A program made the position numbers and the translations under genes. From assembly GCA_013335275.1 (NCBI GenBank), contig JAAXVX010000004.1, positions 1-16,289 of the forward strand: DNA of 16,289 nucleotides, written 5' to 3'. Of this stretch, positions 4,445 to 16,289 are shown one piece after another. The DNA is from Bacteroidales bacterium (lineage in GTDB: Bacteria > Bacteroidota > Bacteroidia > Bacteroidales > UBA932). The notes beneath the pieces are model-generated. The model had not been told where the DNA came from. It saw only the letters and a program-made list of their open reading frames with translations, and ran no database searches. The stretch's first letter is position 1. The number at the start of each line of letters is the position of its first letter.

Positions 4445-5902
4445 ATGTCTCTGCAGGAAAAAACGTTTAAAGGAATAATCTGGAGTTTTGTCGACAACTT
4501 TGCAAGTCAGGGTGTTGAATTTATTGTCGGGATTATTCTTGCGCGCATACTCACTCCTCATGAATTTGGCCTGATAGGCATGCTGACTGTTTTTATCGCC
4601 ATTAGCCAGACTTTTATAGATAGCGGCTTCACAAATGCGTTGATAAGAAAAAACAACTGCACCCAAAAAGACTATTCAACTGTATTCTTTTTCAATATAT
4701 CAGTTTCTCTGTTTCTATACTTTGTTCTGTTTGCTTCGTCCGAAGCAATTGGTACTTATTTCAAAGAGCCCCAATTAGGAATCCTCCTTAAAGTTCTGGG
4801 TTTATGTCTGGTTTTTGGCTCAATCTCAATGATTCAGAAGACAATTCTCACCAAAGAGATAAACTTCAAACAGCAAACTAAGATTTCACTGTTTTCATCG
4901 GTAATATCCGGCGCCATAGGAATCCTGATGGCATTATACGGATATGGAGTATGGAGTCTGGTGGGAAGGGCTTTGATTTCCCTGATATTAAGCTCGATAC
5001 TTTTCTGGATAAGCAGCAAATGGAGGCCTTCGTTTGTTTTCAGCAAAAGTTCGTTTAGGGAACTTTTTGGATTTGGCAGTAAGTTATTGGTAAGCGGGCT
5101 TATTGATACTGTTTACAATAATATATATTACCTGATTATCGGAAAATATTTTTCAACAAAAGAACTTGGTTTATATACAAGAGCAGATCAGTTCAAGAAT
5201 ATTTTTTCGCAAAATATAACCAGCGTAATACAGCGAGTGTCATTTCCAACTTTATCATTAATTAAAGAAGACTCGGACAGGTTAAGGGAGAGTTATCAAA
5301 AACTCCTGAGAAGCACGATGTTCATTACCTTTTCATTGATGTTCTCGATGGCGGCAATGTCTAAGTCAATGATATTTACCCTTGTTGGCGAAAAATGGCT
5401 TCCAGCGGCACCTTACCTCGAATTACTTTGCTTTGTCGGAATTTTTTATCCCCTGAACTCCCTTAATCTTAATATATTGAATGTGAAGGGGCGCTCAGAT
5501 CTTTTCTTAAGACTGGAAATTATCAAGAAGATTATTTTTATCCCGGTGATAGTAATTGGAGTTTTCTTTGGTATAAAAGCACTTATACTGGGCATGATAT
5601 TCAATTCGCTCGTTGCATATTTTATAAACAGCTACTATTCCGGAAGACTTATCGGATATCCGGTCTTTCGTCAGATAAACGATATAAAACCATCATTTTT
5701 AATAGGTATGGTTGTTGGGGCACTATTATATACTGAGTCATTATTTATTCCGGGCAATCTGTATATAATTTTTATAATTCAATGTATCTCGGCACCTCTC
5801 TTTATTTTGATTTTCTCGGAGATAACACAATTCAAAGACTATCTTTTTCTAAAAAAGATTATATTTGATTATATATTTAAAAATGATGACAGAGAAAGAT
5901 AA
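4445..5902 (+). CDS. Wzx-type lipid-linked oligosaccharide flippase (MOP superfamily, WzxC-like)
   Basis: A 485-residue polytopic membrane protein. The opening, T-F-K-G-I-I-W-S-F-V-D-N-F-A-S-Q-G, followed by A-R-I-L-T-P-H-E-F-G-L-I-G-M, is the characteristic N-terminus of the polysaccharide-biosynthesis branch of the MOP superfamily (Polysacc_synt_3, WzxC-like). About a dozen hydrophobic segments are spread along the chain, with basic cytoplasmic loops such as T-K-E-I-N-F-K-Q between them. Length and topology match full-length family members. The expected role is to move undecaprenyl-diphosphate-linked repeat units from the cytoplasmic to the periplasmic leaflet for polymerisation, with the Wzy-like protein at the left edge of the window as natural partner. 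Its end overlaps the aminotransferase start by 20 bases, implying co-translation. Specificity for a particular repeat unit is not visible. Confidence 0.93.
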   Translation: MSLQEKTFKGIIWSFVDNFASQGVEFIVGIILARILTPHEFGLIGMLTVFIAISQTFIDSGFTNALIRKNNCTQKDYSTVFFFNISVSLFLYFVLFASSEAIGTYFKEPQLGILLKVLGLCLVFGSISMIQKTILTKEINFKQQTKISLFSSVISGAIGILMALYGYGVWSLVGRALISLILSSILFWISSKWRPSFVFSKSSFRELFGFGSKLLVSGLIDTVYNNIYYLIIGKYFSTKELGLYTRADQFKNIFSQNITSVIQRVSFPTLSLIKEDSDRLRESYQKLLRSTMFITFSLMFSMAAMSKSMIFTLVGEKWLPAAPYLELLCFVGIFYPLNSLNLNILNVKGRSDLFLRLEIIKKIIFIPVIVIGVFFGIKALILGMIFNSLVAYFINSYYSGRLIGYPVFRQINDIKPSFLIGMVVGALLYTESLFIPGNLYIIFIIQCISAPLFILIFSEITQFKDYLFLKKIIFDYIFKNDDRER

Positions 5903-6998
5903 TATCTATGTTACCCAACCGGCAATGCCTCCACTGGACGAATTTCTTGAATCTCTCACAGAAATATGGGGAAATAAAATAATCACAAATAACGGTCCTT
6001 TCCATATTCAGTTTGAGAAAGCTTTGGCTGAGTATCTCGGCGTAAATTACATCTCTCTCTTTTCCAATGGTACGCTTGCCTTGATTACTGCCTTACAGGC
6101 ACTCAGAATAACAGGAGAGGTAATCACAACGCCATTCAGTTTTGTGGCAACAACTCACTCTCTCTGGTGGAATAATATTAAACCTGTATTTGTTGATGTT
6201 GAACCGGATTATTTCACATTAGACCCCGAAAAAGTAGAAGCTGCCATTACACCGCAGACTACTGCAATCATGCCGGTACACGTTTATGGAAATCCCTGCA
6301 AGATGGATAGATTGCAGGAAATTGCAGATACCTACGGGTTAAAAATAATTTATGATGCGGCACATGCATTTGGGGTTAAACAAAACGGAAGTTCGGTTCT
6401 TAATTGCGGGAACCTGTCAATATTAAGTTTTCATGCCACCAAAGTTTTTAATACGATTGAAGGCGGAGCTATTATTTGCCCGGATGAAAAATCAAAGAAA
6501 AGGATTGATTACCTCAAAAACTTTGGATTTGCAGGAGAAACTACTGTAATTGAGCCCGGAATCAATGCAAAGATGAATGAAATTCAAGCCGCATACGGGT
6601 TAATTCAGTTAAAATACGTAGATCAATACATACAGCAGAGAAAAGAAATTGTTGACATATATAGAAAAAACCTTAGCGGAGTAGCCGGAATTGATTTTAT
6701 GGATGATATCCCGGGAGTTCACCATAATTATGCATATTTCCCAATTATCGTGGATACAATTAAGTACGGTAAATCGAGAGATGAACTTTATGAGATATTA
6801 AAACAGCACAACATATTCGGACGCAGGTACTTCTATCCGTTAATAAGTCAGTTTCCCACATATCGGGGTTTGCCGTCTTCAAGTCAGACAAATCTTCCGG
6901 TTGCCACTAAGATTGCAAGTGAGGTTCTGTGTCTTCCTATATATCCTCATCTACCTCATTCGGATATCGATAGAATATGTTCAATAATCAGCAAATAA
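5883..6998 (+). CDS. DegT/DnrJ/EryC1 family PLP-dependent sugar aminotransferase (VioA/FdtB/WecE-like)
   Basis: A 371-residue sugar-nucleotide aminotransferase. It shows N-N-G-P-F near 36-40, S-N-G-T-L-A-L at 61-67 (PLP phosphate and substrate contacts), D-A-A-H at 158-161 (Asp to the PLP ring nitrogen), and S-F-H-A-T-K-V-F at 182-189 with K187 as the Schiff-base lysine, then E-G-G-A. Family members convert a keto sugar such as dTDP-4-keto-6-deoxyglucose or a 3-keto isomer into the amino sugar, using glutamate. The next two genes encode an acetyltransferase and a WecF-like transferase, so a C4 amine (Qui4N or Fuc4N type) is favoured over C3; this is inference from context. ATG at 5883 (or the adjacent 5886) is preferred over the in-frame TTG at 5865. 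The gene overlaps the flippase gene by 20 bases. No 4,6-dehydratase or nucleotidyltransferase gene is present in the window. Confidence 0.93.
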   Translation: MMTEKDNIYVTQPAMPPLDEFLESLTEIWGNKIITNNGPFHIQFEKALAEYLGVNYISLFSNGTLALITALQALRITGEVITTPFSFVATTHSLWWNNIKPVFVDVEPDYFTLDPEKVEAAITPQTTAIMPVHVYGNPCKMDRLQEIADTYGLKIIYDAAHAFGVKQNGSSVLNCGNLSILSFHATKVFNTIEGGAIICPDEKSKKRIDYLKNFGFAGETTVIEPGINAKMNEIQAAYGLIQLKYVDQYIQQRKEIVDIYRKNLSGVAGIDFMDDIPGVHHNYAYFPIIVDTIKYGKSRDELYEILKQHNIFGRRYFYPLISQFPTYRGLPSSSQTNLPVATKIASEVLCLPIYPHLPHSDIDRICSIISK

Positions 6999-7008
6999 CT
7001 AAAAAATC

Positions 7009-7545
7009 ATGAATTCATTTTACAGTAAAAATGAACTTGATAAAATTGGGTTTAGTAAAGTTGGAGATAATGTACTTATTAGCCGCTTTGCCAGATTTTA
7101 CAGCCCCGAAAAGATGCAGATAGGGAGCAATGTAAGGATAGACGATTTTTGTATACTCTCAGGCGATATTATACTTCACGATTTTATTCACATTTCCGCT
7201 TTTTGCGCCCTGTATGGAAAATTCGGGATAGAAATTGACGACTATTCCGGCCTCTCTCCCAGGTGCACTGTCTTTAGTGCAACAGATGATTTTTCCGGAG
7301 ACTTTCTTGTAGGACCAATGGTTGACTCCTGCTTAACGAATGTTAAAGGTGGGAAAGTTATGATAAGTAAGTACTGCCAGGTTGGAGCCGGAAGCGTTGT
7401 GCTGCCTGATATTACTATTGGGGAAGGAGTCGCTGTGGGAGCTATGTCACTTGTAAATAAAACACTTGATGAGTGGTCTGTATTTGCAGGAATTCCCTGC
7501 AAGATTGTCAAAAAAAGAACTAAAAAATTGCTTGAGCTAATCTAA
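7009..7545 (+). CDS. Left-handed beta-helix (hexapeptide) acyltransferase, likely amino-sugar N-acetyltransferase
   Basis: This 178-residue protein shows the imperfect six-residue periodicity of an LbH fold: I-G-S-N-V-R (38-43), I-I-L-H-D-F and I-H-I-S-A-F in the middle, then V-G-A-G-S-V-V-L and I-T-I-G-E-G-V-A-V-G-A further on. It ends with the family cap F-A-G-I-P-C-K-I-V-K-K-R near 159-170, where most relatives have A-G-x-P-A-K. Relatives acetylate sugars or nucleotide-linked amino sugars with acetyl-CoA. It starts 10 bases after the aminotransferase and 14 bases before a WecF-like transferase, so N-acetylation of the amine made by the aminotransferase is the natural reading. O-acetylation is the alternative. 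The insertion near 91-110 (A-T-D-D-F-S-G-D) replaces the loop that often carries an active-site His in other LbH acetyltransferases, so the catalytic residue is not obvious. Confidence 0.87.
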   Translation: MNSFYSKNELDKIGFSKVGDNVLISRFARFYSPEKMQIGSNVRIDDFCILSGDIILHDFIHISAFCALYGKFGIEIDDYSGLSPRCTVFSATDDFSGDFLVGPMVDSCLTNVKGGKVMISKYCQVGAGSVVLPDITIGEGVAVGAMSLVNKTLDEWSVFAGIPCKIVKKRTKKLLELI

Positions 7546-7559
7546 AAATTCTAAAAAAA

Positions 7560-8753
7560 GTGATTGAATCAGACGGGTTATTGCTGCACATTACAGAAGA
7601 TGAGAAGTTTATTGATTATGTGATTGATGTGTTTGAGTCGGTCTATCCAAACCGGAATGTCTATTTTGTTGCTTTAAAGGAAAACGAAGAAGAATTAAAA
7701 CTTGTACATTCACAAAACCCCAATATAGTTAAGGGCAAAATAGATTCTGATGAGTTTATAGATTTGATAAAATCGATAAACAGGTTTAAGGGGGTCATCA
7801 TTCATAATCTTATTACTGAGTTTAAGCAGGAGGTAATACTTAATGCCCGCCCGGATGTCTATTTTCACTGGATGGCCTGGGGTGCAGATTTGTACTCAAT
7901 TCCTGTATTGTCCAGAAATGTTATTCTTGCAGAAACGCAGAAGTTTTTAAATTCATGCAGAAGCTATAAAGAGAGATTGGCCGGCGAGATGTATAATAAT
8001 TACCCTGCAGTTTTCAATCTGCTTTATCCTTTCTTTTATGCAGAGAAATCGCCATTATTAATAAGAATGAAGTGTTACCGGAAAATCAGAAGCGTTTCCA
8101 CTGTCACGCCCATAGAATATTCGTATGTTAGAAAATACATTTCACATAAAATAAAATATCTGCCCTTCAGGTATATTACTATAGATCAATTTTATTCCGA
8201 AAACGAGGCAGATATTTGTACAGATAATAATTTTCTTATTGGAAATTCCGCCACATATGAGAATAATCATGTAGATACATTCCTATTGCTCCAGAGGTGT
8301 AATCTTGATGATAAACTACTCTACTGTCCTCTTTCATACGGCGATAAAAAATATAGAGACTTTGTTGTATCTAAGGGCAATGAGCTATTTGGAAAGAAGT
8401 TTGTCCCGCTGACTGAATTTTTGCCGCTTAAAGATTATAATACCTTTTTGCTCACTTGCGGGAATTTAATAATGAACAATATACGGCAACAGGGGATGGG
8501 TAATGTAATTATGTCTTTATGGAAGGGTGCAAGAGTCTTTATTAACGAAAAAAGTCCCATCTATCTGTACATGAAAGAAGAGGGTGTACTATTATATAAA
8601 ATGTCAGATTTAGAAAATATGAGCATCCTTCCCGATTTTGAGACACTGGCAAAGCATAACAGACCAATACTTGAAAACCTGTATAACCGCAACAGAGTGC
8701 TCAACGAGACCTCGGACCTGATTAAACAAATCGTTAATTCAAAAATCGCATAA
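7560..8753 (+). CDS. WecF-like (GT56) TDP-4-acetamido-4,6-dideoxyhexose transferase
   Basis: This 397-residue protein resembles the WecF/TDP-Fuc4NAc transferase family (GT56). Recognised segments are H-I-T-E-D-E-K-F-I-D (10-19), H-W-M-A-W-G-A-D (103-110), G-N-S-A-T-Y-E-N-N-H-V-D (228-239), P-L-S-Y-G-D-K-K-Y (257-265), F-x-P-L-T-E-F-L-P-L (271-280) and N-I-R-Q-Q-G-M-G-N (307-315). Known WecF adds Fuc4NAc from dTDP-Fuc4NAc to the lipid-linked enterobacterial common antigen intermediate, on the cytoplasmic face of the membrane. Placement directly after an aminotransferase and an acetyltransferase fits a three-gene acetamido-sugar cassette. The start is a GTG at 7560: no ATG lies near, and the D-E-K-F-I-D motif sits at the usual distance from the N-terminus. 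Whether the sugar is Fuc4NAc, Qui4NAc or a differently acylated relative is not determined. Confidence 0.85.
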   Translation: MIESDGLLLHITEDEKFIDYVIDVFESVYPNRNVYFVALKENEEELKLVHSQNPNIVKGKIDSDEFIDLIKSINRFKGVIIHNLITEFKQEVILNARPDVYFHWMAWGADLYSIPVLSRNVILAETQKFLNSCRSYKERLAGEMYNNYPAVFNLLYPFFYAEKSPLLIRMKCYRKIRSVSTVTPIEYSYVRKYISHKIKYLPFRYITIDQFYSENEADICTDNNFLIGNSATYENNHVDTFLLLQRCNLDDKLLYCPLSYGDKKYRDFVVSKGNELFGKKFVPLTEFLPLKDYNTFLLTCGNLIMNNIRQQGMGNVIMSLWKGARVFINEKSPIYLYMKEEGVLLYKMSDLENMSILPDFETLAKHNRPILENLYNRNRVLNETSDLIKQIVNSKIA

Positions 8754-11087: not shown

Positions 11088-11699
11088 ATGAGAGAAAGAA
11101 TATATAACTGGTTAAAACAGAATCCGGGAATAAAGGCAAAGGTTCATTTTTGTTTAGTTCACCCATATCGTTCCCGTCCTCGCTGGTGGGTGCGTAATTT
11201 TCTTATGCCTTTCATGATTAAAAGGGGCAAAGGAGCTTATATTTCTTCAAGTGTAAGAAGAGACCTGTATCCATTCAATAAATTTGAGATAGGGTCAAAA
11301 TCTGTCATTGAAGCGAACTCTGTTTTGAATAATGGAATGGGCAATATAAAAATTGGGGATAATTGCCTCATTGGAATAGGCTCGGTTATTCTGGGAGAAA
11401 TAGTAATCGGGAACCATGTCGGCACAGGTCAATACTGTGTATTTACAGGGCTCAATCATAACTATGAATCGCTTAATTCCACATTTGACTCACAGGGAAC
11501 TTATGCCGATGCTATTGTTATTGAAGACGATGTTGTTACCGGGTCGCATGTAATAATACTGCCTGGTGTAAGAATAGGAACACATTCGGTTATATCCGCT
11601 GGAAGTGTAGTCACCAGATCTGTTCCCCCATATTCACTTGTATCCGGGAATCCGGCCAAGGTTGTTTTTAATTTCAAAACAGGCCAAAGAGTTAATTAA
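11088..11699 (+). CDS. Left-handed beta-helix acyltransferase (maltose/galactoside O-acetyltransferase-like)
   Basis: This 203-residue protein has a basic, aromatic-rich N-terminal extension of about 45 residues, with R-P-R-W-W-V-R-N-F near 31-39. A parallel beta-helix with hexapeptide repeats follows (I-G-S-K-S-V-I-E-A, I-G-D-N-C-L-I-G-I-G, V-I-G-N-H-V-G-T-G, I-I-L-P-G-V-R-I-G). It includes G-L-N-H-N-Y-E near 121-127, where H124 sits at the usual catalytic-His position, and the closing S-V-P-P-Y-S-L-V-S-G-N-P-A-K-V-V. Relatives transfer acetyl or other acyl groups to sugar hydroxyls or amines, usually from CoA; some LbH enzymes (LpxA, LpxD) use acyl-ACP. A carrier-protein gene starts only 8 bases after this one, so an acyl-ACP donor deserves consideration here. 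The basic extension could hold it near the membrane. Substrate unknown. Confidence 0.87.
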   Translation: MRERIYNWLKQNPGIKAKVHFCLVHPYRSRPRWWVRNFLMPFMIKRGKGAYISSSVRRDLYPFNKFEIGSKSVIEANSVLNNGMGNIKIGDNCLIGIGSVILGEIVIGNHVGTGQYCVFTGLNHNYESLNSTFDSQGTYADAIVIEDDVVTGSHVIILPGVRIGTHSVISAGSVVTRSVPPYSLVSGNPAKVVFNFKTGQRVN

Positions 11700-11707
11700 A
11701 GGAATTT

Positions 11708-11941
11708 ATGAATACAATAGAAGAATTCGTTATAAAATTTGCAGAACAATTTGAATCTACAGACAGGAAGAGCATAAAGGCATCCACCAGATATAAAGAT
11801 TTGGAAGAATGGGACTCTCTCGCTGTTCTTACAATAATATCCATGGTAAACTCAACCTATAATGTTGAGCTTATCGGGGCAGATGTAAGAGGCGCAAGTA
11901 CAGTTGAAGAGTTGTATAACTTAGTGATGTCCAGAATGTAA
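11708..11941 (+). CDS. Acyl/peptidyl carrier protein (phosphopantetheine-binding)
   Basis: A 77-residue acidic protein with the carrier-protein fold pattern and the 4'-phosphopantetheine attachment site D-S-L at 36-38 (Ser37) in E-E-W-D-S-L-A-V-L. The second-helix sequence after the serine is T-I-I-S-M-V-N-S-T-Y rather than the D-S-L-D-x-V-E-L-V-M of housekeeping AcpP, so it is a specialised carrier. It would need a phosphopantetheinyl transferase encoded elsewhere. It is the last gene of the rightward unit, directly after an LbH acyltransferase, and ends 18 bases from the tail of the opposing ketosynthase gene. It may serve the LbH enzyme, the ketosynthase or both; the sequence alone does not decide. 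Confidence 0.9.
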   Translation: MNTIEEFVIKFAEQFESTDRKSIKASTRYKDLEEWDSLAVLTIISMVNSTYNVELIGADVRGASTVEELYNLVMSRM

Positions 11942-11959: not shown

Positions 11960-13024
11960 TTAAAAATAGATTATTTCATTAAATGAGAGATACTCCATTC
12001 TTAAAAGCAAAGAAGCCCACGTTAGTCCTACTCCAAACCCGGCCAGACAAATCAGCAAAGATTCCTTTGTGAGTCTGTCGCCAAGGTTGAATGAAATTGA
12101 CGTAGGTACCGATACTCCATTTGAATTTCCAAAAAACTCAAGGATGTTGCTTGGTACCTTTTCATGCGGAACCTGTAGCTTATCGGCCAGCTTGGTAAGG
12201 GTAAACTTGTTAGGCTGATGGAACATGAAATAATCTACGTCATCTTTCGTAATACCTGCTTTTTCCAATAGCGACTCAATCATTGGAGGAACTTCCCGCT
12301 GAACGAAATTAAAAATTTTATCTCCGTTGGCACAAAGCTGATCCAGGGAACGGAAATTGCCTTCTGCATCCTCTGTCATCTCTGCGGTAGCCGGCGATGA
12401 CGGTGTTTTAAAACCGCCTGCAGGTATAATTACCGTATCAAATGCAGTCCCGTCCATTTTAATATTTGCATAAATAGTCAGGTCCGTTTCGGATTTTTCT
12501 AAAATTGTAACAGAAGCAGCATCTCCAATCAGAGGGTTGTTGCTTCTGTCCCTTTTTGATACTTTTTGACTTAAGACATCTGCATTTAGTAATACCACCT
12601 TGTTTATGTCCGGCTGATCCAATAGCATAAACGACTGAAAAAGGCCTATTTCATAGCCTGCGCAACCCTGATTTATATCAAGGCATATCATATCCTTTTT
12701 AAGCCCTAATTTGCCCTGTATTACATTGCTGGTGGGAGGGAGAATATAATCCGGAGATTGAGTCACAAGAACAATGGCGTCAATGTCTTCTTTCTTCAGG
12801 AGCTTTTGATCAAAAAGATAATTTAAACCATATACACACAAATCTGATATAGTCACACCGCTTTCCACAATCCTATGGGAACCATATCCCATGATTTTCT
12901 TTAGTTTAAGAGACTGGGCTACAGTGAAATTATAATTATCCATTTCATCCTCAAACTTGATTTCGTTTTTAGGCAAAACAGTGAGCAGCCCGCTTATTTT
13001 CTTGTTTCGGAATATCAGATTCAT
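11960..13024 (-). CDS. 3-oxoacyl-ACP synthase III (FabH-like ketosynthase)
   Basis: A 354-residue thiolase-fold condensing enzyme of the KAS III family. The catalytic triad is intact: Cys121 in N-Q-G-C-A-G-Y-E, His269 in F-H-Q-P-N-K-F, and Asn300 in F-F-G-N-S-N-G-V-S-V-P. The G-D-A-A-S motif near 167-171 and the C-terminal G-F-G-V-G-L-T-W complete the signature. KAS III enzymes normally condense a CoA-linked starter with malonyl-ACP, releasing CO2; relatives in specialised pathways can also move acyl groups. It is about 35 residues longer than E. coli FabH. The position in a glycan locus, one base after a dedicated carrier protein and in an operon with an adenylation enzyme, argues against general fatty-acid synthesis and for making or extending a short acyl decoration. 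No ketoreductase or dehydratase gene is in the window. The ATG at 13024 is the natural start. Confidence 0.92.
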   Translation of the reverse strand: MNLIFRNKKISGLLTVLPKNEIKFEDEMDNYNFTVAQSLKLKKIMGYGSHRIVESGVTISDLCVYGLNYLFDQKLLKKEDIDAIVLVTQSPDYILPPTSNVIQGKLGLKKDMICLDINQGCAGYEIGLFQSFMLLDQPDINKVVLLNADVLSQKVSKRDRSNNPLIGDAASVTILEKSETDLTIYANIKMDGTAFDTVIIPAGGFKTPSSPATAEMTEDAEGNFRSLDQLCANGDKIFNFVQREVPPMIESLLEKAGITKDDVDYFMFHQPNKFTLTKLADKLQVPHEKVPSNILEFFGNSNGVSVPTSISFNLGDRLTKESLLICLAGFGVGLTWASLLLRMEYLSFNEIIYF

Positions 13025-13025
13025 A

Positions 13026-13256
13026 CTATTTTACTCCATTCTTTTTCAACAATGCAATGATAGACTCAATGCCGGAAAAATTCTCAGGAAGAATATCCAG
13101 CCCGTCAATGGAAATTCCGAATTCCTCATCTAACGAAGAGACCAAGCTAACTATGTCAAAACTGTCTAACATTCCTTGTTCAATAAAGTCAGTCTTTTCG
13201 GTAAAATCAAACTCGGGACGGATTTCCTTTAAAATATCAATTATTTTCTGTTTCAT
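13026..13256 (-). CDS. Acyl/peptidyl carrier protein (phosphopantetheine-binding)
   Basis: A 76-residue carrier protein with the phosphopantetheine site L-D-S-F-D at 30-34 (Ser32), preceded by a short first helix and the loop F-I-E-Q-G-M. The rest, I-V-S-L-V-S-S-L-D-E-E-F-G-I, is a typical second helix and loop. D-S-F in place of D-S-L, together with the Q-G-M-L-D-S-F-D context, resembles stand-alone carriers that accompany DltA-like ligases (DltC type). Its start overlaps the end of the GNAT gene by 20 bases, and its stop lies one base before the ketosynthase start, so the three are probably translated together. The most direct reading is that the adenylation enzyme of this operon charges it and that the GNAT and/or the ketosynthase use the thioester. 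Confidence 0.92.
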   Translation of the reverse strand: MKQKIIDILKEIRPEFDFTEKTDFIEQGMLDSFDIVSLVSSLDEEFGISIDGLDILPENFSGIESIIALLKKNGVK

Positions 13257-14073
13257 TATTAATTAAGTTTTTAGTCAAGACTATATCATAAAAATTCTCC
13301 ATTTGAAAGCCGTAATGCTTATACCTTAACACTGCATTTTCGTTGGACAGGATTACCCAAAAAAACATTAACCGGGCATCCTTGCCATCCGAGAAATATT
13401 TATTCAGTAAAGCTGATCCAATTTTTTTATCTCTGTGTTCCGGATGTACAAACCAGTATCTTAAATATGAAGAGTACCCTTTATTTACATATATAACAAA
13501 GCCAAGAATCTGATTATCGGATAAATATATATATGTGTTCCCATTGGTTATCCATTTTTTAACCTCATCTATTCCTGGCAATTGCTCTGATACCGGATCG
13601 AAATATGCATAAAGTAAATCAAGGATATTTTCGGCATGTATAATTTTTGCGGGTAATATATGGCTATTTATTGCAAAATGATCGTTGTCAGAAACTTTTC
13701 TGCTCATTCTGCATAATTTTGAGTATTCGCTAAAACCGGACTTAATAAATACATCTGATGCAAGGCCGATATCAGGTATTTTTCCAACCAGATCGGCCAC
13801 AAAACTAATATCGCTCATTTCGTGATTTAAATGAATAAGTGCATTTTGTAATGAATCATATGAAGCCGCTACAAAATACAAATTCACAAAGTCTTTATTA
13901 GTGCGTAACAATAGCAATGTTTCGGCATGTTGAAAAAAATGCAGATTTCCGGAATTAATCCAACAGGTAACAATTTCAATATCGGGATAGAAATTTGTGA
14001 TTATACCCTTCTTCCCTTCTTTAATAAATTTTATCTTATCATTTATTTCCTGATAATTAGAAATTCTATCCAT
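13237..14073 (-). CDS. GNAT family acyltransferase, apparently bipartite
   Basis: A 278-residue protein whose C-terminal half is a recognisable GNAT domain. It shows the L-R-Y-W-F-V-H-P-E-H-R-D-K-K-I-G-S-A-L-L stretch near 204-223, in which R214-x4-G219-S-A is the acyl-donor pyrophosphate loop, followed by N-E-N-A near 244-247 and Y-K-H-Y-G-F at 251-256. The N-terminal half ends in F-I-K-S-G-F-S-E-Y-S-K-L-C-R-M near 109-123. That looks like the closing strand pair of a second, degenerate GNAT domain, so a tandem-GNAT layout as in FemX/MshD-type enzymes is plausible. GNAT enzymes move an acyl group from CoA, or in some cases from a carrier protein, to an amine. Lying between an adenylation enzyme and a carrier protein, it is the best candidate here for off-loading the thioester onto a sugar amine, or for capping an aminoacyl group. 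It overlaps the adenylation gene by 8 bases (ATGGATAG) and the carrier gene by 20. Confidence 0.85.
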   Translation of the reverse strand: MDRISNYQEINDKIKFIKEGKKGIITNFYPDIEIVTCWINSGNLHFFQHAETLLLLRTNKDFVNLYFVAASYDSLQNALIHLNHEMSDISFVADLVGKIPDIGLASDVFIKSGFSEYSKLCRMSRKVSDNDHFAINSHILPAKIIHAENILDLLYAYFDPVSEQLPGIDEVKKWITNGNTYIYLSDNQILGFVIYVNKGYSSYLRYWFVHPEHRDKKIGSALLNKYFSDGKDARLMFFWVILSNENAVLRYKHYGFQMENFYDIVLTKNLINNETENN

Positions 14074-15589
14074 TATTAGCCAGGTTATAAAGCGTTATCC
14101 TATCAAGTTTCCCGTTTGTGTTTCTTGGCAGCTCTTCCATTTTATGAAACACTGTTGGGACCATATATTTTGGAAAAACGGTCCCAATTGATTTTTTCAT
14201 TTCTGCAACCGAAAGTTCTTTCTTACATTCGTAAAACAGGGTAATTTCTTTCTTGTCCCGGTTGTAAACAACACATCCGGCATCAACCAATTTCAGGGTG
14301 TTTACAATAACGTGTTCAATTTCACCTAGCTCAACCCTGTAGCCCATATGCTTTATAAGACTGTCCTTTCTTCCCCTGAAAACCATTTCACCTCTGTCGT
14401 TTTTAACAACAATGTCTCCTGTCCTGTAAATTGTTTCGGGATATGATTTGTTTAGGGGATTCTGGACAAATGCTGCAGCGGTTTTTTCCGGATTGTTGTA
14501 ATATCCCATTGCAAGTGATGTGCCTCTTATACAAAGTTCTCCCTCTTCGTTCTCAGAAACAATTTGATTATCGGAGTTTAGTATAAGTATATCGGTGTTT
14601 CTGCAAGGGAATCCGATTGGTATAGGTTCGTCATCTCTCAGTTTACGGTCAACAATGTAATAAGTGCAGTCAACGGAGGCTTCAACAGGCCCGTAAAGAT
14701 TTACAAATGTGGCTTCCGGCATGTTCGCCTTCCAATAGTTGAATTGTTTTGTTGGGAAAACTTCGCCTGCAAACCAAACCATTTTGATCTGCGGTAATGG
14801 AAACTTGCTGAGCAAGTCCATATTGGCAATATTCACCATTATCGACGGCACCCAAAAAATATAAGTGACATTATGCTTTTTTAGTACCTCAAGTAATTTC
14901 ACCGGAAACGAAGCCATTTGGTTGTCAAGAAGAACAAGAGTTACCCCCTTTGACATCATCAGGCATATTTCATAATTATAGTGATCGAATACAGTAGGAG
15001 ATAATACACCAAGAATTTCTTCTCCGGTAAACCCGAATGTATTTATAGCCCATTCCGTATAATCGATATAACTTTTGTGATTCAGCACGACTCCCTTGGG
15101 CGTTCCGGTAGAACCGGAAGTATTAATAATACAAAGTGGATCGGTATCGATTATTTTGGATTGAATATTTTTAAGAACATTTTTGTCAATGGGTTGGCTG
15201 AAATCTGTTTTTTCGAAAATTAATAGTGGGATATCGCCTTTAATGCTTTTAATATCTTCGGAATATTTTTCGTTTGTGATGAGCGCCGCCGGCTTTATCT
15301 GCTCAAGAATACTATTTATCCGGGCAAGAGGAGTCTTGACATCCAGATTCATATATATATTGCCACTGTAAGTAATTGCAATATCAGAAATTATGCATTC
15401 TGCAGACTTAGGCAAAAATACAGCTATTGGCTTATTGAATAAGTTTAATCCGGACAATTCAATTGCAAAATTCCTGGCATTTTTATGCAATTCTGAAAAA
15501 GATATTTCCCGGTCTCCATCAATTATTGCAATTTTCCCGGGAACATTTCCTGCTGTTTTTTCGAAGTATTCAATGATATTGATATTCAT
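14066..15589 (-). CDS. Stand-alone amino-acid adenylation enzyme (DltA-like ligase, NRPS A-domain)
   Basis: A 507-residue member of the adenylate-forming superfamily with all core motifs. A3 is T-S-G-S-T-G-T-P-K-G (157-166), A4 is F-D-H-Y-N-Y-E (201-207), A5 is N-L-Y-G-P-V-E-A-S (297-305), A7 is Y-R-T-G-D (388-392), A8 is R-G-R-K-D-S through G-Y-R-V-E-L-G-E-I-E (405-425), and A10 is N-T-N-G-K-L-D-R with K494 as catalytic lysine. D202 in A4 is the Asp that pairs with the alpha-amino group in amino-acid-activating enzymes, so an amino acid is the likely substrate, although its identity cannot be read reliably. Length matches DltA and single A-domains; no condensation or carrier domain is fused. 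It would form an aminoacyl-AMP and load a separate carrier, presumably the one encoded two genes downstream. No DltB-type MBOAT gene is present. It is first in the leftward unit, 35 to 45 bases from a promoter-like element. Confidence 0.92.
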   Translation of the reverse strand: MNINIIEYFEKTAGNVPGKIAIIDGDREISFSELHKNARNFAIELSGLNLFNKPIAVFLPKSAECIISDIAITYSGNIYMNLDVKTPLARINSILEQIKPAALITNEKYSEDIKSIKGDIPLLIFEKTDFSQPIDKNVLKNIQSKIIDTDPLCIINTSGSTGTPKGVVLNHKSYIDYTEWAINTFGFTGEEILGVLSPTVFDHYNYEICLMMSKGVTLVLLDNQMASFPVKLLEVLKKHNVTYIFWVPSIMVNIANMDLLSKFPLPQIKMVWFAGEVFPTKQFNYWKANMPEATFVNLYGPVEASVDCTYYIVDRKLRDDEPIPIGFPCRNTDILILNSDNQIVSENEEGELCIRGTSLAMGYYNNPEKTAAAFVQNPLNKSYPETIYRTGDIVVKNDRGEMVFRGRKDSLIKHMGYRVELGEIEHVIVNTLKLVDAGCVVYNRDKKEITLFYECKKELSVAEMKKSIGTVFPKYMVPTVFHKMEELPRNTNGKLDRITLYNLANNG

Positions 15590-15716: not shown

Positions 15717-16289
15717 ATGAAAATCGGAAGTCCAATTGACAAAGATTCCCTGTTAATTAAAAAGCGGCTGATAGTATTGGAAGTAGGGCCGGGCAGCAAT
15801 CCCACAAAAAGATCAAATGTACTTGTAGAAAAATTCGTAAACGATAACAGACACAGAAGAGGGGATTTTAAAATTTATCCTAATCAGAAATTAATTCAGG
15901 CGGATGGAGAAACACTTCCATTTAAAGATAAAGAGTTTGACTATGTGATTTGCAGCCACGTACTCGAGCACGCCGAAGATCCTGCCAGGTTCGTAAATGA
16001 ACAGGTAAGGGTATCAAAAATGGGCTATTTAGAAGCTCCCAGCCTTATCGGAGAATTTCTGGCTCCAAAGTCTTCTCATAAATGGGTTATTCTGGACATC
16101 GATGACAAGCTTGTTCTTTATGAAAAATCAAAGCTCCCATTTGATTTTACACCCGATTTTGGTAATGTTTTTCTCAATTATCTGCCATATAAATCGCTGC
16201 TGTATAAGCTTTTATGCATGTCAAAACAGAATTTTCTTGCTGTCAAATATGAGTGGAAGGATTCTGTAGATATAATTGTTAATCCGGAA
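15717..16289 (+). CDS. Class I SAM-dependent methyltransferase (3' truncated)
   Basis: The open frame runs from ATG at 15717 to the window edge, giving 191 codons without a stop. The SAM-binding glycine-rich loop is V-L-E-V-G-P-G-S-N-P (20-29). Motif II/III follow as A-D-G-E-T-L-P-F (62-69) and F-D-Y-V-I-C-S-H-V-L-E-H-A-E-D-P (74-89), the pattern of Methyltransf_11-type enzymes. These act on small molecules, lipids or sugars; several polysaccharide loci carry one that methylates a sugar or caps the chain end. It is transcribed divergently from the adenylation operon and probably begins another rightward unit that continues past the window. The C-terminal substrate part is missing, so the target cannot be guessed. 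Confidence 0.85.
   Translation, partial: MKIGSPIDKDSLLIKKRLIVLEVGPGSNPTKRSNVLVEKFVNDNRHRRGDFKIYPNQKLIQADGETLPFKDKEFDYVICSHVLEHAEDPARFVNEQVRVSKMGYLEAPSLIGEFLAPKSSHKWVILDIDDKLVLYEKSKLPFDFTPDFGNVFLNYLPYKSLLYKLLCMSKQNFLAVKYEWKDSVDIIVNPE

Follow-up and report, generated by a model that had tools for sequence, protein, structure and literature searches.

Gene sets in which a ketoacyl synthase and an acyl carrier protein (ACP) are considered to supply a 4-amino sugar with its N-acyl group have been described in bacteria, and here we analyse a cassette of this kind, an acylation operon in a glycan locus of a Bacteroidales bacterium (GenBank assembly GCA_013335275.1, contig JAAXVX010000004.1). The window is this entire contig with its 16,289 bases, and the source genome, a metagenome-assembled genome (MAG), comprises 424 contigs with 1.92 Mb in total and is 82.6% complete. 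In the report on Pseudomonas syringae, the viosamine island is listed as VioA, VioB, VioS, VioR, Acp, VioM and VioT (PMC3927599). Like the window it combines a 4-aminotransferase, an N-acyltransferase, a β-ketoacyl-ACP synthase III (KAS III), an ACP and a methyltransferase, its sugar being dTDP-viosamine, but its seven listed genes include no adenylation enzyme, no second ACP and no capping enzyme, and it has a reductase of its own, VioR, which has no counterpart in the window (PMC3927599). The R1-group genes wfpC-wfpG for the O-polysaccharide of Flavobacterium psychrophilum are predicted to make an N-acyl group on a 4-amino sugar; this too is a Bacteroidota O-antigen locus, with ketoacyl synthases, an ACP, a reductase and a PglD-like transferase, but its product is 3,5-dihydroxyhexanoyl, without an amino acid, and the term 'adenyl' is absent from the available text of the paper (PMC6519341). 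VioS/VioR/Acp/VioB and wfpC-G are thus of the same kind as the cassette. Clorobiocin synthesis has the same series of roles (adenylation enzyme CloN4, first carrier CloN5, transfer enzyme CloN2, second carrier CloN1, deoxysugar acyltransferase CloN7), but there proline is oxidised to a pyrrole by CloN3, the acyl group goes to a hydroxyl, CloN2 only transfers and no capping enzyme is named in the part of the source available (PMC11218499).

Two further comparisons concern single components. The adenylation enzyme of the window and a formyltransferase of a related locus (L002) both match LgrA, the formylation-adenylation-carrier protein of linear gramicidin, but LgrA is one multidomain nonribosomal peptide synthetase (NRPS) protein, whereas the cassette parts are mostly separate and stand beside a KAS III. 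The protein encoded at 7009-7545 resembles AntD of Bacillus cereus, with 52% identity, the same fold and an aligned active-site Ser/Asp; an ACP donor is proposed for it, whereas AntD crystals hold CoA thioesters. What differs from the Vio and Wfp systems is the dedicated loading of an amino acid, or loading by FkbH, on an ACP of its own, the linkage of the KAS III to this ACP, and a capping enzyme that can be exchanged. Among the open-licence papers listed by searches, and judged by titles and the beginnings of abstracts, none describes the combination of carrier loading, ACP, KAS and surface glycan.

The cassette in the window consists of a quartet on the minus strand, given here in transcription order, and a second carrier gene that is convergent to it:

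14066..15589, minus strand: A, a stand-alone adenylation enzyme of 507 amino acids (PF00501; TIGR01733 316.9 against a cut-off of 317.4; DltA models well under cut-off; pocket code DHYFWALVDK)
13237..14073, minus strand: tandem GNAT ('TNxY' family) of 278 amino acids (PF00583), proposed to N-acetylate aminoacyl-S-ACP1
13026..13256, minus strand: ACP1, 76 amino acids (PF00550, 27.5 bits, over cut-off), the proposed carrier loaded by A
11960..13024, minus strand: KAS III of the type called KSa below, 354 amino acids, Cys-His-Asn intact (PF08541/PF08545; FabH models under cut-off), proposed to use a carrier-bound starter
11708..11941, plus strand: ACP2, the second carrier, whose gene converges with that of KAS III (PF00550 at 20.1 bits, narrowly below the cut-off of 20.8; motif WDSL)

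A and GNAT overlap by 8 bases, GNAT and ACP1 by 20, and a single base separates ACP1 from KAS III. The Pfam scores of A (209.2), GNAT (43.8) and KAS III (PF08541 75.3, PF08545 40.1) are over the cut-offs, as is that of ACP1, and the translations contain the carrier motif GMLDS and the KAS III motifs QGCAG, FHQPN and GNSNG. An earlier note on this DNA had described four abutting or overlapping minus-strand genes with intact motifs, and coordinates, profile matches and motifs all bear this out. Its four genes are, however, not the whole unit: it omitted ACP2, whose end is 18 bases away from the stop of KAS III and which sits behind the acyltransferase gene 11088-11699 on the plus strand, and both ACP2 and a sugar N-acyltransferase recur with the cassette. 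A second MAG (L057; 99% identity over A residues 227-507) shares this gene order, which runs from A by way of ACP2 and the acyltransferase to the GT2 and GT4 genes.

To follow the cassette across genomes, species genomes were scanned with the A protein, and the best 80 of 190 loci were kept, so that A is present in these by choice. Together with the loci from a search starting from KAS III that hold both A and KSa they form a set of 67, including the window and leaving out L057 (the window's own locus), five duplicates (L111, L125-L128) and loci without A or without KSa. Open reading frames (ORFs) were called by a simple script and some ACP genes were missed. The recurrent cassette comprises A, an N-capping enzyme, ACP1, KAS III and ACP2, plus a sugar N-acyltransferase. 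Gene maps of the Bacteroidota show a block of Wzx-DegT or PglC followed by A-GNAT-ACP1-KSa-ACP2-SDR(-SDR)-MBL-NeuD-like (SDR, short-chain dehydrogenase/reductase), and a common order in Bacillota is KSb-ACP2-SDR-AAC3-like-A-ACP1-KSa, where KSb is a second KAS III type. ACP1 lies directly upstream of KAS III for 54 of the 70 KSa genes, and ACP2-type carriers follow KSa in many relatives. An SDR gene is found in 57 of the 67 loci, FabD in 13 and a carboxylase (ACC) in nine, while 48 loci encode an acyltransferase of the NeuD-like or AAC3-like type. Of the glycan markers (GT2, GT4, Wzx, PglC, DegT, NDP-sugar epimerase), 51/67 loci have at least one and 41/67 at least two, compared with 8/26 for A loci without KSa in reach, several of which are short pieces. 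The earlier note had taken the operon for a dissociated line, similar to NRPS and polyketide synthase (PKS) systems, that serves a glycan locus, and had asked whether the neighbourhood lies mostly outside such loci; with markers in 51/67 loci the proposal is upheld and the neighbourhood is not mostly found elsewhere.

The search starting from KAS III covered four families chosen around genomes that carry A (threshold E 1e-80) and matched 25 of 1,053 genomes (6/56, 9/397, 4/301 and 6/299). Five of these (G645-G649) were already known through A and were set aside; the remaining 20 loci were refetched with flanks. A lies within 2.5 kb of KSa in 16 of them and at 8.0 kb in L124, in L111 it is outside the fetched stretch and about 9 kb off by the presumed identity with L035, whose contig has the same length, and in L117 and L118 there is no A, its place before KSa being taken by an FkbH protein with its own ACP. 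If L111 is accepted on this basis, KSa would be accompanied by a carrier-loading enzyme in 20/20 loci. Five of the 20 (L111, L125-L128) are on contigs equal in length to those of the A-found loci L035, L060, L053, L047 and L065; among the other 15, A is within 2.5 kb in 12 and at 8.0 kb in one, and FkbH is present in two. No other strong KSa copy was found in the window's class (295 genomes; best other match 242.6 bits) or phylum (395 genomes). In the KSa tree the record titles name Bacteroidota, Bacillota, Spirochaetota, Deferribacterota, Synergistota, Kiritimatiellota and Thermodesulfobacteriota, the last as a single long-branched row; many are MAGs. A plasmid search with the A protein at E 1e-100 gave one record, and no E. 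coli genome with A DNA was found. Near one Bacillota cassette lies a flagellin gene (L070:3962-4804), which hints at flagellin glycosylation as the sink there.

The pocket of A keeps D235 (GrsA numbering) in 84/84 and 17/17 of the sequences read. The window's code is also found in L013, L024, L042 and L044, and L066 is one residue off. DIFFWALLDK is the commonest code, with 40 of 84 sequences (window counted once) and four of 17 in the second set; other codes differ, and no matching published code is known to us. A and ACP1 are not a D-alanylation pair: A scores 277.1 against 476 and 266 against 559.85 for DltA, and the carrier 34 against 68 and 24.6 against 52.35 for DltC, all under the curated cut-offs. 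At the position of C269, the pocket Cys that favours D-Ala, the window has Ala, and Cys occurs only in outliers such as L004, L013 and L076-L081. LgrA comes first among the PDB matches of A, but its score is the sum of two domains (174 and 162 bits), and entries for DltA score up to 175. FkbH enzymes charge ACPs with glyceryl groups. The two FkbH-type proteins with their own ACP, which replace A and ACP1 before KSa, are recognised by profile match (cut-off 146.65):

L117:5378-7132: FkbH-type protein, 296.5 bits
L118:9871-11592: FkbH-type protein, 302.5 bits; matches the solved structure 3slr (uncharacterized protein BF1531) with 507.6 bits

The same A enzyme with code DIFFWALLDK also occurs in Prevotella-type loci (L011, L018, L022, L025, L026, L028, L029, L034, L039, L040, L043, L045, L071), where its neighbour is a gene for polynucleotide phosphorylase, identified as such in L071. 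Some of these loci have a recognisable ACP1 and most encode an AAC(3)-like protein, but KSa and glycan markers are absent from them; possibly they represent a different use of the same loader.

The role of the GNAT is indicated by a natural swap. L121 and L122 are 96% identical in A, 92% in ACP1, 98% in KSa and 87-98% in flanking proteins. Gene 2 is a GNAT in L121 and in L122 part of a 366-aa formyltransferase-ACP1 fusion. Because a formyltransferase fused to ACP1 takes its place in this near-identical locus, the GNAT probably caps the aminoacyl group bound to ACP1. The earlier note had the four genes attach the acyl group to the polysaccharide; from these sequences capping of the amine on ACP1 is the most likely task of the GNAT, and attachment probably falls to the AntD-like protein 7009-7545. 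The GNAT has the two lobes and the overall fold of mycothiol-synthase-type tandem GNATs, and the L002 formyltransferase matches LgrA with 52.8 bits, behind Fmt and ArnA. Altogether, 45 of the 67 loci have a GNAT only, 13 a formyltransferase only, three both and six neither; the 569-aa single ORF of the Mucispirillum locus (L056:13621-15330), with formyltransferase and GNAT domains, was counted as formyltransferase only. Both FkbH-primed loci, whose acyl group is expected to be amine-free, lack both enzymes. Relabelling with another distance rule gave TNxY 46, FMT 12, none 5, both 4 and FkbH 2, with L046 as TNxY and L113 as FMT through a downstream 208-aa match. With these labels, of which that of L113 is doubtful, at least 10 changes between GNAT and formyltransferase are needed on the KSa tree, whose long branches are L068, L070 and L056. 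When labels were shuffled, the formyltransferase label was not clustered (255/500 as low) and the GNAT label was (3/500).

As for the KAS III, all 70 KSa sequences retain C112, H244 and N274, numbered as in E. coli. KAS III enzymes need the His and Asn for malonyl decarboxylation. FabH Trp32, which stacks on CoA, is K, R or Q in KSa, R36 is never R, and Arg249, an ACP-docking residue, is F in 70/70 (the window has K and F at positions 32 and 249). Loss of the Trp fits a carrier-bound starter. Against the models of the housekeeping FabH the window protein scores 168.7 against 249 and 152 against 292.1, under the curated cut-offs. Of the 15 loci with FabD or carboxylase, 10 show no KAS III type other than KSa in the stretch that was fetched, which favours malonyl use.

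The acceptor can be predicted from the plus-strand genes:

4445..5902, plus strand: Wzx-type flippase (PF13440, 322 bits)
5898..6998, plus strand: DegT aminotransferase, DesI-like (TIGR04427 314.8 against a cut-off of 650; PDB 2po3, 222 bits)
7009..7545, plus strand: AntD-type N-acyltransferase (92/177 residues identical to AntD; Foldseek)
7560..8753, plus strand: glycosyltransferase related to WecF, the TDP-Fuc4NAc transferase (PF07429 46.1 against 25; NF002756 152.2 against a cut-off of 457)
11088..11699, plus strand: left-handed beta-helix (LbH) acyltransferase for O- or N-acyl transfer to the glycan (PF00132; nearest NCBIfam WcaF-type, 71.9 against a cut-off of 192)
15717..16289, plus strand: S-adenosylmethionine-dependent methyltransferase, divergent from A and cut by the contig end (PF08241, 47.8 bits)

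The DegT protein is nearest to the model of DesI, the dTDP-4-keto-6-deoxyglucose 4-aminotransferase, and to 2po3, which is DesI itself. All of Foldseek rows 1-13 for 7009-7545 are AntD (TMq 0.92). AntD S84/D94 align with S83/D93 of the window protein (numbering assumed from the aligned Met), which are invariant in 35 sequences, and PDB titles place AntD with dTDP-4-amino-4,6-dideoxyglucose. A homologue of the GNAT (P0005, 87%) and one of the AntD-like protein (P0084, 96%) come from the same source, probably from one contig of 13,274 bases. RmlB is over cut-off elsewhere in the window's genome. Together, the AntD-type, DesI-like and WecF-like enzymes and RmlB point to a dTDP-4-amino-4,6-dideoxyhexose as the predicted acceptor, on which 7009-7545 is probably the attaching enzyme. 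The window thus joins KAS III, ACP, DegT and an LbH N-acyltransferase in one locus as viosamine-type loci do, but a dedicated 3-oxoacyl-ACP reductase is not seen in the locus up to the contig end. Its methyltransferase also has a namesake in function in the viosamine island, where VioM is listed as one (PMC3927599).

The sequences themselves show the parts and the order in which they recur, the exchange of GNAT for formyltransferase and of A for FkbH, and the intact triad of the KAS III. From these data we propose a route, whose reactions, amino acid, step order and cap role are inferred from gene content. A would adenylate an α-amino acid and load it on ACP1, where the tandem GNAT would N-acetylate it, or a formyltransferase N-formylate it in some relatives. 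KSa would accept the capped aminoacyl group from ACP1 instead of CoA and condense it with malonyl-ACP2 to an N-acyl-γ-amino-β-ketoacyl-ACP2. The cap would prevent loss of the chain as a tetramic-acid-type lactam through attack of the free γ-amine on the thioester. An SDR would reduce the β-keto group in most relatives; the window would need a housekeeping reductase, or the step is missing. The AntD-type transferase would then move the group to the 4-amine of the dTDP-4-amino-4,6-dideoxyhexose, and the WecF-like transferase and Wzx would build the modified sugar into the polysaccharide. That a laterally spread cassette equips an amino sugar of the cell surface with an unusual N-acyl group by these five steps seems to us evenly poised between right and wrong.

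Several observations weigh against this route. The window holds no ketoreductase up to the contig end where it stops, and a search of its 82.6% complete genome with one SDR query found no cassette-type ketoreductase (best 69 and 62 bits). In ten of the 67 loci no SDR gene lies within 6 kb; among them L110, L113, L115, L116 and L119 are minimal A-ACP1-KSa-ACP2-NeuD-like cassettes, with no cap enzyme within 3.5 kb either. Loss of CoA use by KSa is not proven, because KSb also lacks W32 (kept in 0/27) and FabH R151 is kept in 62/70 KSa. Both cap types occur in three loci and in the L056 fusion, which rules out strict replacement of one by the other and leaves them mostly alternative, and some proteins counted as GNAT are divergent, have no match to a Pfam GNAT model (L055) and were assigned by profile comparison only (99.4%). 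The crystals of AntD contain CoA thioesters, and the ACP donor is an assumption; RmlB is common, being over cut-off in 10/14 control genomes; and LbH presence proves no special donor, because the LbH1 search matched 6208 proteins at E <= 0.001. Finally, 16/67 loci lack a glycan marker.

The minimal cassettes fit better with an acyl relay without extension, in which A would load ACP1, the GNAT would acetylate the amine, and KSa would only pass the resulting N-acetylaminoacyl group on to ACP2, from which the sugar N-acyltransferase would transfer it. That no cassette-type reductase was found for the window agrees with this, as do the roles of CloN4, CloN5, CloN2, CloN1 and CloN7, which follow in the same order (PMC11218499). 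CloN2 is itself KAS III-like. The product would resemble N-acetylglycyl and N-acetyl-D-alanyl, which are described on Qui4N (PMC3210612). The His and Asn kept in all KSa, the SDR in 57/67 loci and the 10 loci where FabD or carboxylase accompanies KSa as the only KAS III type are not expected of a relay. We regard this explanation as rather unlikely and rank chain extension ahead of it, though not beyond doubt. In a convergent line, KSa would start from acetyl-CoA and form on ACP2 a short acyl group, acetoacetyl and then 3-hydroxybutyryl, which the GNAT would couple to the amine of aminoacyl-ACP1, yielding N-(3-hydroxybutyryl)aminoacyl. N-[(R)-3-hydroxybutyryl]-L-alanyl is among the groups reported on 4-amino sugars such as Qui4N (PMC3210612), and VioS-type KAS III is proposed as the source of 3-hydroxybutyryl in modified viosamine (PMC3927599). 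Because such aminoacyl-derived groups are reported on such sugars (PMC3210612), the product may be a simpler one. R151 of FabH suits the convergent line, but W32 and R36 are lost in 70/70 KSa, ACP1 directly precedes KSa in 54/70, KSa stays when FkbH replaces A, and a formyltransferase in the GNAT's place would not carry 3-hydroxybutyryl. Acetyl-CoA priming was demoted after the search starting from KAS III, which found KSa accompanied by A or FkbH, and we consider this line improbable. That the minus-strand operon makes some other, unrelated small molecule and has glycan genes as neighbours by chance would agree with the 16 marker-free loci and with its convergence to the glycan operon. We hold this to be very improbable, given the difference in markers between loci with and without KSa, the co-orientation of the cassette with Wzx, DegT, PglC or NeuD-like genes in many relatives and the position of ACP2, which closes the glycan operon of the window.

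More broadly, and tentatively, the cassette may represent a laterally spread, previously unnamed class of polyketide lines that are primed with an amino acid or by FkbH and occur in records whose titles name seven phyla. Such lines would provide surface amino sugars with capped γ-amino-β-keto or β-hydroxy (statine-like) acyl groups. The loader, with one of several A codes or of the FkbH type, and the cap, acetyl or formyl, would be exchanged independently around a constant KAS III, giving combinatorial diversity of surface antigens. The cassette would link starter loading of the NRPS type with the chemistry of a KAS III in the synthesis of surface glycans, and the natural allelic swap between L121 and L122 makes the role of the cap enzyme directly testable. 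It predicts N-acyl substituents for glycan chemists to seek and provides a gene signature for finding such groups in gut Bacteroidota, Bacillota and environmental bacteria, in which exchange of loader and cap among relatives could let bacteria vary their surface chemistry.

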